Virus record (IMG/VR): IMGVR_UViG_3300034418_000397 | Location: 1-20,068 of that record | Strand: one strand, 5' to 3' | From: a virus | Length of the DNA: 20,068 nucleotides | In this document: positions 17,157 through 20,068 of the stretch, piece after piece | How the letters are laid out: each line of letters opens with the position of its first letter | Position numbering within the stretch: position 1 is the first letter of the stretch | The notes under the pieces: model-generated | What the model saw: only the letters and a program-made list of their open reading frames with translations | What the model was told of the DNA's origin: nothing | Database searches by the model: none | Position numbers and translations under genes: made by a program

Positions 17157-18131
17157 ATGGCACAGCCAACCAACACTTTTGACAGCTATGATGCTGTCGG
17201 TATCCGCGAGTCGCTAGAGGACCTGATATACGATGTAAGCCCCGAAGACACGCCGTTTTATAGTGCTTGCGCGAAAGTAAAGGCAACTAACACTTTGCAC
17301 GAGTGGCAAACAGACGCATTACGCGCATCAGCGGCAAACGCTCACGTTGAAGGTGACGACACCACTGCTGAAGCTCGTACAGCGACTTCACGTTTGGGTA
17401 ACTACACTCAAATCTTCAAGAACGCAGTATCTGTACCTGATACAGACAACGGTCTTGATAAGGCTGGCCGCGCTAAAGAAATGGCGTACCAGACACTGAA
17501 GATCGCTAAAGAGCAAAAGCTCGACATCGAGAAGGCATTGTTCGACAACAACGCTCGTGTAGCAGGTAACTCTACTACTGCGCGTGAATTGGCGGGCGCT
17601 CCTGCTTGGATGATCACTAACACTGACTTTGTTACTGGCGGCGCGACTGATGGTGCAGATCCTACTGGTGACGGTACTGACGCTCGTACAGATGCAGTTG
17701 GCTCGTTAACAGCGTTCAGCCAAGCCAAGTTTGACGGTGTTATGCAGTCAATCTGGGAGCAAGGCGGAAACCCTGATGTTGTTTACTTGTCAGCGTTCCA
17801 GATGAACAAGGCACTCGGATTCACTGGTATGAACAACCAGCGTTCAACTATCGGTGCTTCTGTTGGTGGTACTAACGCTGTGATCAACGCAGTTGACGTA
17901 TACGTTACTCCTTGGGGGACTGTAGAATTTATCCCTACTCGTGAGAACCGTTCACGCGATGTGTTCATCATGCAAAACGACATGTGGTCTGTTGGCGTTC
18001 TACGTCCAACTAAGAACACTGCGTTGAGCAAGACAGGTGACTCAGAGCGCCGCCAGGTGGTTACTGAACTGACTCTTATTTGTAAAAATGAGAAGGCCTC
18101 AGGCATCATCGCTGACAACACAACTTCTTAA
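17157..18131 (+). CDS. Major capsid protein, copy 2 (SU10-like, complete)
   Basis: This complete 324-residue major capsid protein of the SU10/DUF5309 type has HK97 fold by family knowledge. The N-arm reads TFDSYDAVGIRESLEDLIYDVSPEDTPFYSACAK (residues 7-40), followed by HEWQTDALRA and the spine helix (AKEMAYQTLKIAKEQKLDIEKAL, about 105-127). The C-terminus, SKTGDSERRQVVTELTLICKNEKASGIIAD, is the family signature. It follows the scaffold gene after 15 bases, with GAGGTAA as ribosome-binding site. A UACG-loop hairpin follows. The coding sequence appears intact. It is a diverged homologue of the truncated capsid gene at the left edge. As this copy sits next to portal and scaffold, it is probably the main shell protein. 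Confidence 0.92.
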   Translation: MAQPTNTFDSYDAVGIRESLEDLIYDVSPEDTPFYSACAKVKATNTLHEWQTDALRASAANAHVEGDDTTAEARTATSRLGNYTQIFKNAVSVPDTDNGLDKAGRAKEMAYQTLKIAKEQKLDIEKALFDNNARVAGNSTTARELAGAPAWMITNTDFVTGGATDGADPTGDGTDARTDAVGSLTAFSQAKFDGVMQSIWEQGGNPDVVYLSAFQMNKALGFTGMNNQRSTIGASVGGTNAVINAVDVYVTPWGTVEFIPTRENRSRDVFIMQNDMWSVGVLRPTKNTALSKTGDSERRQVVTELTLICKNEKASGIIADNTTS

Positions 18132-18369: not shown

Positions 18370-18656
18370 AGTTAGGTGAGAAGGTTCTGTATGACCACAC
18401 TGAAGATAAGGTAGTGGTCCAGAAGACTCATGACGTAAACCCTGAGATGCATCGCGCACAGATGTTGCGTGAGGCTGGTGCAGGCCAAAAGGGCGAGCAT
18501 CGGCTCGTTGGAACAATTCCACTGAACCTTATTGCAGAATGGTGCAAAGAGGCCGGAGTAAGGTGGAATGACATACAAGCTCGGCAGGAAGTTGTGAAGC
18601 GCAAGATCCTGTCAGGGGACTTTGACAAGTTCAGAGTGTGGAAGGGAACGTATTGA
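18366..18656 (+). CDS. Small head-associated protein (paralogue of the 103-residue protein at 732)
   Basis: This is a 96-residue soluble protein. Near the N-terminus is EKVLYDHTEDKVVVQ. GEHRLVGTIPLNLIAEWCKEAGV follows at about residues 43-65, and KRKILSGDFDKFRVW near the end. This matches the layout of the protein at 732-1043 (KVLSHD..., RVASIPLTVYYDLKQKGI, KKWLNDPENKYFR). Both lie shortly after a capsid gene and its hairpin. I read them as diverged copies of one family. The likely role is capsid-associated or head completion, but this is not shown. It overlaps the previous gene by 4 bases. Confidence 0.7.
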   Translation: MKLGEKVLYDHTEDKVVVQKTHDVNPEMHRAQMLREAGAGQKGEHRLVGTIPLNLIAEWCKEAGVRWNDIQARQEVVKRKILSGDFDKFRVWKGTY

Positions 18657-18657
18657 G

Positions 18658-18852
18658 GTGGACAGACGTACTGCGGCTTCTGCTCATAAGCGGATCGATG
18701 ATCTGGAGAAACAACTCGTGAAACATGAGGCAGTGTCTACAGAGCGTTGGACAGAAACAATTTTACGAATCAAAAGGATTGAGGCGATCATGATCGGGAC
18801 AGCGGGTGCTACCATCATGCTCCTGATCACCCTGTTAACCAAAACGGGATAG
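18658..18852 (+). CDS. XhlA/holin-like small membrane protein
   Basis: I place the start at GTG 18658, one base after the preceding stop, giving 64 residues. An upstream ATG at 18622 lies deep inside the previous gene and has no ribosome-binding site. The N-terminal 40 residues form an amphipathic helix/coiled coil (DRRTAASAHKRIDDLEKQLV and onwards). The C-terminus has one membrane helix (IMIGTAGATIMLLITLL, about residues 44-60). This is the layout of haemolysin XhlA-type holin accessory proteins. No endolysin is visible in the window, so a lysis role is plausible but unproven. Confidence 0.65.
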   Translation: MDRRTAASAHKRIDDLEKQLVKHEAVSTERWTETILRIKRIEAIMIGTAGATIMLLITLLTKTG

Positions 18853-19310: not shown

Positions 19311-19586
19311 ATGGCTATTGAGTATCGAGGCGAACGATTCGCCGGTTACAACAAACCTAAGAGGACACCAAATCATCCTCGTAAGTCGCATGCTGTTCTG
19401 GCAAAAGAAGGCGACACAATCAAGCTTATTCGTTTCGGTCAGCAAGGAGTCAGCGGTGCGGGCAAGAAGCCGAAGACCGAGAAGGAGAAGGCGCGGCGTA
19501 GATCATACTATGCTCGCCATAACGCGCAGGGAAAACCCACAAGCAAGCTCTCTGCAAAATACTGGTCACACAAGGTTAAATGGTGA
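19311..19586 (+). CDS. Conserved basic phage protein of unknown function (91 residues)
   Basis: The sequence opens EYRGERFAGYNKPKRTPNHPRKSHAVLAKEGDTIKLIRFGQQGVSG (residues 3-48). KTEKEKARRRSYYARHNAQGK and SAKYWSHKVKW follow. This opening and ending recur in many aquatic phages and some plasmid-borne genes, but I know of no established function. It is strongly basic, has no membrane segment, and could bind nucleic acid. An overlapping longer frame at 19318-19644 is a shadow. Weak AAAGG lies upstream within the end of the preceding gene. Confidence 0.65.
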   Translation: MAIEYRGERFAGYNKPKRTPNHPRKSHAVLAKEGDTIKLIRFGQQGVSGAGKKPKTEKEKARRRSYYARHNAQGKPTSKLSAKYWSHKVKW

Positions 19587-19591
19587 AGAAC

Positions 19592-19729
19592 ATGGCAATG
19601 TACGGCAAAAAGACAGCAAAGAAGGGCATGAAGAAGATGGCTAAGAAGGAGTTCACTCCATGTAGCCGGTGTCCTAACCCAGCATCATGCAAGCGGGCAG
19701 GAATGTGCCTGGCTAAGGCGATTGGCTAA
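19592..19729 (+). CDS. Lysine-rich mini-protein with four cysteines
   Basis: This is a 45-residue protein (MAMYGKKTAKKGMKKMAKK, then a cysteine cluster). The cysteines at 24, 27, 33 and 39 have spacing C-x2-C-x5-C-x5-C (CSRCPNPASCKRAGMC), which could bind zinc or form disulphides. The basic first half could bind DNA or RNA. An in-frame GTG at 19583 would add three residues and overlap the previous gene by 4 bases, so either start is possible. The stop overlaps the next ATG (TAATG), which supports a real translated gene. It is not recognised as any named family. Confidence 0.6.
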   Translation: MAMYGKKTAKKGMKKMAKKEFTPCSRCPNPASCKRAGMCLAKAIG

Positions 19730-19893
19730 TGGCTAAGTCAGGACTGTACGCAAACATTCATGCAAAGCGGAAGCGCATTGCAGAAGGCTCGAAAGAGAAG
19801 ATGCGGAAGCCTGGTTCTAAGGGTGCGCCTACAGACGCGGCATTCGCTAAGGCCAAGAAGACGGCTAAGAAAAAGCCAAAGAAAAGGACATAA
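19729..19893 (+). CDS. Lysine-rich mini-protein with KMRKPGSKGAPT motif
   Basis: This 54-residue, highly basic protein reads MAKSGLYANIHAKRKRIAEG, then SKEKMRKPGSKGAPTDAAF and a lysine/alanine tail. The LY-NIHAKRKRI and EKMRKPG-KGAPT motifs are widely shared by small phage proteins of unknown function (possibly the family named DUF6321; I am not certain of the number). It starts on the stop of the previous gene. No membrane segment is seen. A DNA-binding or packaged minor protein is possible because of charge, without direct evidence. Confidence 0.65.
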   Translation: MAKSGLYANIHAKRKRIAEGSKEKMRKPGSKGAPTDAAFAKAKKTAKKKPKKRT

Positions 19894-19898
19894 CGGGC

Positions 19899-20068
19899 AT
19901 GACAAAAGAGATGTTGGAGAAATATGATGCGAACGGCAACGGCGTTCTCGATCCGGATGAGCTTGCTCTTATTGAACTTGAGGATCGCCGCCGTAAGATG
20001 GAAGATGAAGACGCTCAGCGTGATTCGATCCGCAAGATGGCGTGGTTCGCGCTGTTTGGCTTACTGCT
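19899..20068 (+). CDS. EF-hand plus membrane-segment protein (3'-truncated)
   Basis: The frame runs open off the window edge after 56 residues. Residues 9-20 are DANGNGVLDPDE, a canonical EF-hand calcium loop with ligand positions 1 (Asp), 3 (Asn), 5 (Asn), 9 (Asp) and 12 (Glu), and Gly at 6. It is preceded by a short helix (KEMLEKY) and followed by a charged helix (LALIELEDRRRKMEDEDAQRDSIRKM). A hydrophobic segment then begins (WFALFGLL). This suggests a calcium-responsive or calcium-stabilised membrane protein. Position next to membrane-protein genes suggests lysis or envelope function, by inference only. Ribosome-binding signal is weak (ACGGGC). Confidence 0.65.
   Translation, partial: MTKEMLEKYDANGNGVLDPDELALIELEDRRRKMEDEDAQRDSIRKMAWFALFGLL

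Follow-up and report, generated by a model that had tools for sequence, protein, structure and literature searches.

A Phage Membrane Protein with a Conserved Calcium-Type Loop as a Candidate Lysis Protein of the Holin Class

The virus record analysed here in its full length of 20,068 bases (the window) ends in a gene for a small protein, which will be referred to as EF-TM (EF-loop/membrane-hairpin protein). We put the probability at roughly 0.57 that EF-TM is a holin-class lysis protein with a putative cytoplasmic calcium loop, calcium tuning the oligomer formed by its membrane hairpin. This reading was built on loop conservation, hairpin prediction and gene order, and from the sequences a function in lysis appears likely. 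Holins set the time at which phages lyse their hosts, and a holin that senses ions would add a new kind of input to this timing. As the conserved loop belongs to a membrane protein encoded mostly among lysis genes, it is conceivable that calcium may help to control when phages kill their hosts. The EF-TM family is common in environmental phage contigs, and since it is also present in cultured phages, deletion and calcium-shift experiments are possible.

The EF-TM Gene and Its Complete Copy

EF-TM is truncated in the window by the end of the contig. The missing 3′ end was obtained from a contig of a virus collection (L002), which shares 99.96% identity with the window across 5,170 bases and completes EF-TM to 107 residues. 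The features of the gene are as follows.

19899..20068, plus strand: EF-TM, ATG start, last open reading frame of the window, 56 residues, cut by the contig end
19926..19961, plus strand: calcium-type loop DANGNGVLDPDE, 12 residues (residues 10-21)
19962..20036, plus strand: conserved charged helix (residues 22-46), which runs into membrane segment 1 (AlphaFold2 helix 19-67)
20037..20066, plus strand: membrane segment 1, start only (residues 47-56); segment 2 lies beyond the window
L002:5001-5324: complete EF-TM copy, 107 residues

The complete protein consists of the N-terminal calcium-type loop, the charged helix, a two-helix membrane hairpin and a lysine-rich end. A dual-start reading was considered, using the Met residues at positions 1 and 5 in the manner of lambda S, which has two starts, but was dropped because the second Met is absent from most relatives. 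Scanning L002 for promoters and terminators gave no more candidates than scanning shuffled sequences. Elsewhere in the window, two genes for SU10-type major capsid proteins were observed (1-678, cut by the contig start, and 17157-18131), whose products are 41% identical over 225 residues. They are paralogues rather than an assembly repeat, as no DNA-level self-match was found in the window.

Conservation of the Calcium-Type Loop

The loop pattern tested comprises 12 residues with oxygen ligands at positions 1, 3, 5, 9 and 12 and glycine at position 6. It is matched by DANGNGVLDPDE, in agreement with the initial annotation, which had found acceptable EF-hand residues at all ligand positions. 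Two of the 27 window proteins tested contain the pattern, EF-TM and one protein with an acidic run (DDSDDGEVEDVD); by chance it is rare, with 0.0275 matches per set of shuffled residues. Pfam EF-hand_1 matched the 56-residue fragment with an E value of 3e-5 and 23.7 bits, which is just under the curated gathering cut-off of 25.4, and the full protein with 22.0 bits, likewise below 25.4. A profile of seven relatives searched against the PDB matched a calcium-binding protein (E 8e-9) and calmodulin (approximately 4e-8) over the loop and the exit helix.

In scans seeded with the membrane half only, the full loop pattern was kept in 150 of 152 non-duplicate loci; homologues without conserved ligand residues, which had been named beforehand as evidence against an EF-hand, were thus looked for and not found as a set. 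In a larger set of loci the pattern was present in 239 of 242, and in 235 of 238 after removal of the duplicate contigs L213, L235 and L240 and the window's own locus (L001). The three exceptions are L073, whose frame starts inside the loop, L103 with Q at position 12 and L228 with N at position 6. Two later scans gave 79/80 and 80/80 best loci with the pattern, numbers that provide no independent test since their seeds included part of the loop. The invariant loop columns of alignment A4 (62 rows) are partly forced, as A4 was drawn from the 236 of 242 loci with a stop, a start and a loop-like pattern.

Residue counts were made on 208 distinct genes, a set which, like the 199 distinct proteins used below, carries the same loop-selection bias as A4, the counts of 239/242 and 150/152 being less biased. 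D at position 1 was present in all 208 genes, and G at position 6 and E at position 12 in 207 each. Positions 3, 5 and 9 were occupied by D, N, S, T or E only, with N rather than D at position 5 in 102 genes, and positions 2, 7, 10 and 11 varied widely. The synonymous codons of the fixed ligands vary freely as well, so that the ligands look to be under purifying selection.

Membrane Hairpin and Predicted Structure

Two membrane segments were predicted by hydropathy and a charge rule in all 199 distinct proteins, each of which also has a higher positive charge on the two sides flanking the hairpin than in the stretch linking its segments. A topology with both termini inside the cell (N-in/C-in) is therefore predicted. 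AlphaFold2 modelled EF-TM with a mean pLDDT of 87.6 and a pTM of 0.55, placing a short helix at residues 3-9, then the loop, an unbroken helix at 19-67 that joins the loop exit to membrane segment 1, and the helix of the second membrane segment at 81-106. The same plan was obtained for a member of the T4-like clade (see below) at a pLDDT of 78.9, the first 20 residues being of low confidence. Since helix 19-67 is unbroken from loop to membrane in the model, calcium putatively bound at the loop could act on the membrane part via a rigid helix.

These results bear out the description of EF-TM in the initial annotation as a single calcium-type loop joined to a small membrane protein. The charged helix and the start of a membrane segment noticed there are real, and relatives continue into the second segment and a lysine-rich tail. 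Because the entering helix is short (3-9) and many relatives have only 4-9 residues in front of the loop, the predicted motif is closer to a loop with its exit helix than to a full helix-loop-helix.

Family and Distribution

Neither Pfam nor NCBIfam contains a family for EF-TM, and the closest PHROG, 27150, has no function assigned to it. None of the holin families in Pfam, PHROGs and NCBIfam matched EF-TM above cut-off, the CRP-207 member reaching an E value of 0.051 with Phage_holin_3_6, below cut-off. A fold search against the PDB returned one meaningless match (E 9.4). In a viral fold library one relative without a name was found (E 1.3e-5); weak matches included two named holin or holin-antiholin at E values of 1.5 and 3.1, to which no weight was given. 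EF-TM is thus without a sequence or fold match to proven holins in these searches.

In environmental phage contigs, individual scans detected 425, at least 590, 193 and 325 stretches that match the family, the sets overlapping one another. No match was found in plasmids, and nine loci on genome contigs, all from metagenome bins or MAG contigs, are probably phage. EF-TM occurs in phages of Roseobacter, Pelagibacter, Methylophilales and Limnohabitans. In a tree of 68 proteins, calculated from 110 columns only with quick support values and containing two long branches (L086, L087), most proteins split into a lysis-gene clade (30 rows) and a T4-like clade (32 rows), with an SH-aLRT of 90 on each side of the split. 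None of the 30 rows of the lysis-gene clade lies in a T4 tail cluster, and none of the 32 rows of the T4-like clade lies with lysis genes.

The locus counts given below are based on the best 80 loci per scan and hence lean towards close relatives; loci were assigned to clades by best match after duplicates were dropped. For gene calling, the longest ORF was taken as a simple rule, and the names of neighbour clusters rest on one or few representatives, that of M15 cluster 14 being taken from the name given in the DC31 record.

EF-TM Is Encoded beside Lysis Genes in Several Lineages

The supposed place of EF-TM next to lysis genes was confirmed in the window's clade and also in two more distant lineages, CRP-1-type and DC31-type. 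An endolysin, defined as a member of a GH24, M15, GH108 or GH19 cluster within four genes downstream, occupies one of the positions +1 to +4 in 100 of the 112 window-clade loci with at least 2 kb of downstream sequence (77/87 when counted once per protein). A holin-type gene (PF11351, phrog_2524 or other) lies within three genes in 88 of the 112. EF-TM is constant while the holin-type slot downstream of it (four clusters) and the endolysin slot (GH24, M15, GH108 or GH19) vary. The genes downstream of EF-TM on L002 are a small ORF, one for a phrog_2524-type membrane protein and one for a GH108 endolysin. The phrog_2524-type gene (L002:5553-5963), whose function is unassigned, fills the holin slot before the endolysin. 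A comparison of its cluster with the PF11351 holin cluster aligned 27 columns only at an hhalign probability of 82%, and phrog_2524 may be a divergent holin.

Upstream of EF-TM the window encodes two further small proteins with membrane segments.

18622..18852, plus strand: small protein with a coil and a membrane segment at its C terminus; weakly matched by PF23831, uncertain start codon
18859..19308, plus strand: phrog_32327-type protein with a C-terminal membrane segment, approximately 150 residues

The former is a common upstream neighbour of EF-TM. The latter was found at -1 to -4 in 80 of 97 window-clade loci and is a rival lysis candidate in the same neighbourhood; in CRP-345 its counterpart (gp45) lies elsewhere in the genome, apart from the EF-TM cassette. 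Three very basic small proteins are encoded just upstream of EF-TM, at 19311-19586 (phrog_7595), 19580-19729 (with cysteines) and 19729-19893 (phrog_16028), and basic small proteins of similar kind recur in related Roseobacter phages.

Of 69 CRP-1-type loci, 59 carry an endolysin and 67 a spanin-like gene within 2 kb. The corresponding numbers for DC31-type loci are 71/71 and 68/71, and in all nine DC31-type loci compared with Pfam the endolysin is Peptidase_M15_3. A PF11351 or phrog_2524 holin-type gene is present in 0/69 CRP-1-type and 1/71 DC31-type loci. In the Roseobacter phages CRP-1 (gp56) and CRP-9 (gp72), EF-TM directly precedes the endolysin, followed by a spanin-like gene (lipoprotein/signal plus anchor); apart from EF-TM, only the product of the latter has two segments in the stretches read. 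EF-TM therefore occupies the usual holin place in these two phages and is the sole candidate for a holin seen in their cassettes. The CRP-1 spanin-like gene itself matches only PHROGs of unknown function, its label being derived from the annotation in CRP-345 together with a weak match.

In CRP-345, EF-TM (gp69) is followed by an annotated spanin2 and an endolysin. Scanning 80 of its 81 proteins identified gp02, gp69 (EF-TM) and gp68 (the spanin) as short two-segment proteins; gp02 (56 residues) is encoded far from the lysis cassette, and gp42, with 180 residues, also scores two segments. The genes after EF-TM in CRP-810 code for a PF11351 holin and a GH108 endolysin. CRP-207 (MZ892987.1) was not considered lysis-linked, as the neighbouring gp73 (L087:3292-3873), despite the annotation as putative lysozyme, was not counted as an endolysin. 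The protein looks like a membrane anchor with a coiled coil, and PHROGs yielded no lysozyme for it and only a weak match to a tape measure (E 0.0015).

The T4-Like Clade

No endolysin was found near EF-TM in the T4-like clade (0/71 loci). Here 55 of 95 loci lie inside a tail-gene cluster (baseplate hub, hub assembly catalyst), and Rz-type spanin genes occur within four genes in 9 of the 29 non-tail loci. In HTVC008M and Melnitz, a gp51-type hub-assembly gene lies before EF-TM, and a putative tape-measure gene or a large unnamed gene comes after it. For the role in entry that had been offered as an alternative to lysis, nothing in the window's clade speaks in favour; such a role is conceivable only for the T4-like clade among tail genes.

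Function of EF-TM and the Possible Role of Calcium

According to the holin-class reading, EF-TM would accumulate late in infection in the inner membrane, which it would help to open for the endolysin. Free calcium is low in the cytoplasm, and the loop would therefore stay largely unoccupied up to the onset of membrane leakage or the injection by a second phage. Inflowing calcium would then order the loop and shift the helix, and the EF-TM oligomer would be sped up or switched. Calcium binding, the oligomer, the pore and a calcium effect on timing are thus what we infer from the predicted protein. CRP-1/CRP-9-type and DC31-type phages probably use EF-TM as their main holin. Its likely part in the window's clade is that of a second holin or a holin regulator, and it need not itself be the pore there, because another holin-type gene usually follows.

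Direct sensing of calcium in seawater, as proposed in the initial annotation, was rejected as stated, since the loop is predicted to lie inside, where free calcium is low, and the freshwater Limnohabitans phage DC31 carries an EF-TM relative. A more specific version, in which EF-TM is a calcium-gated holin whose cytoplasmic loop reads the first calcium inflow, from the earliest leaks or from a superinfecting phage, is possible, though we hold it tentatively and well short of even odds. If it were true, calcium from the earliest membrane leaks would make lysis all-or-none, and calcium entering via a superinfecting phage would shift the lysis time. The affinity of isolated EF loops for calcium is often low.

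Against a single lysis role, the tail location in the T4-like clade and the co-resident holin genes of the window's own clade weigh most. The latter suit a role as antiholin or lysis timer, in which the hairpin would pair with the neighbouring holin and restrain it until calcium changes, so that lysis would be delayed under calcium control. A holin-type gene to be restrained does follow in 88/112 window-clade loci, and a precedent exists in the mycobacteriophage protein LysF1a, which has two segments, a predicted N-in/C-in topology and a second holin-like protein as its partner (PMC13056207). With the PF11351/phrog_2524 gene nearly absent from CRP-1-type and DC31-type loci, there is perhaps nothing to restrain in those lineages, and we regard an antiholin as rather unlikely. 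The tail location would be accounted for if EF-TM were a membrane anchor or virion factor for tail-hub assembly or DNA entry, its proximity to lysis genes reflecting late transcription only. The T4-like tail clusters, with the gene order of HTVC008M and Melnitz, argue for such a factor, but in three other lineages EF-TM is found next to endolysin and spanin genes, not tail genes, and even among the non-tail T4-like loci nearly a third have spanin genes close by, making it distinctly improbable as a general explanation. Finally, the loop could be structural, always filled or always empty, shaping the start of the helix while calcium regulates nothing. Many EF-type loops are structural, and position 5 is often N. 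The strict retention of E12 and D1 suggests real metal binding, without separating sensing from structure; of the explanations considered, we find a structural loop the least probable.

Comparison with Known Systems

PHROG 27150 matched the EF-TM of CRP-1 over profile positions 55-138 of 139 (E 9.2e-12) and that of HTVC008M (E 2.4e-4), but gave no match to the window's own EF-TM; the profile has approximately 50 more N-terminal positions than EF-TM. In its loop and exit helix EF-TM resembles calmodulin-type EF-hand proteins, as seen in the family profile match, and differs from them in having a single loop, a short or missing entering helix and an attached membrane hairpin. Loop-helix calcium motifs are also known from dockerins. 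An EF-hand-like calcium site has been described in a phage lysis protein, the endolysin LysGH15, where it is reported to sit in the enzyme, whereas the loop of EF-TM belongs to a membrane protein (PMC4022735).

Class II holins, such as that of the lambdoid phage 21, have two segments and an N-in/C-in topology. EF-TM shares with them the size, the predicted hairpin, the topology and the gene place before the endolysin, but no sequence match, and the N-terminal calcium-type loop and the charged helix of approximately 25 residues are its own. We know of no described holin with this combination, and a search of titles and the beginnings of abstracts in the full-text literature, which takes in few subscription papers and preprints, returned no EF-hand holin or antiholin. 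GTA_holin_3TM (PF11351) occurs in the same lysis cassettes and follows EF-TM in CRP-810; EF-TM gives no PF11351 match, and PF11351 is a separate, co-occurring family. LysF1a of F1 mycobacteriophages has two segments with predicted N-in/C-in topology and works with a second holin-like protein; in contrast to EF-TM it has 88 residues, its host is Mycobacterium smegmatis, and no calcium motif is named in the abstract (PMC13056207).

For Melnitz, the CsgGF curli pore has been proposed as a pinholin analogue, and that paper contains no word starting with "holin" and names no conventional holin, so that EF-TM represents a concrete candidate (PMC9004378). EF-TM is encoded in Melnitz as well as in HTVC008M. 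CsgGF is an outer-membrane-type pore, whereas EF-TM is a second, simpler candidate and, if the calcium-gated holin were true, would be the better inner-membrane holin candidate in Melnitz- and HTVC008M-like phages.
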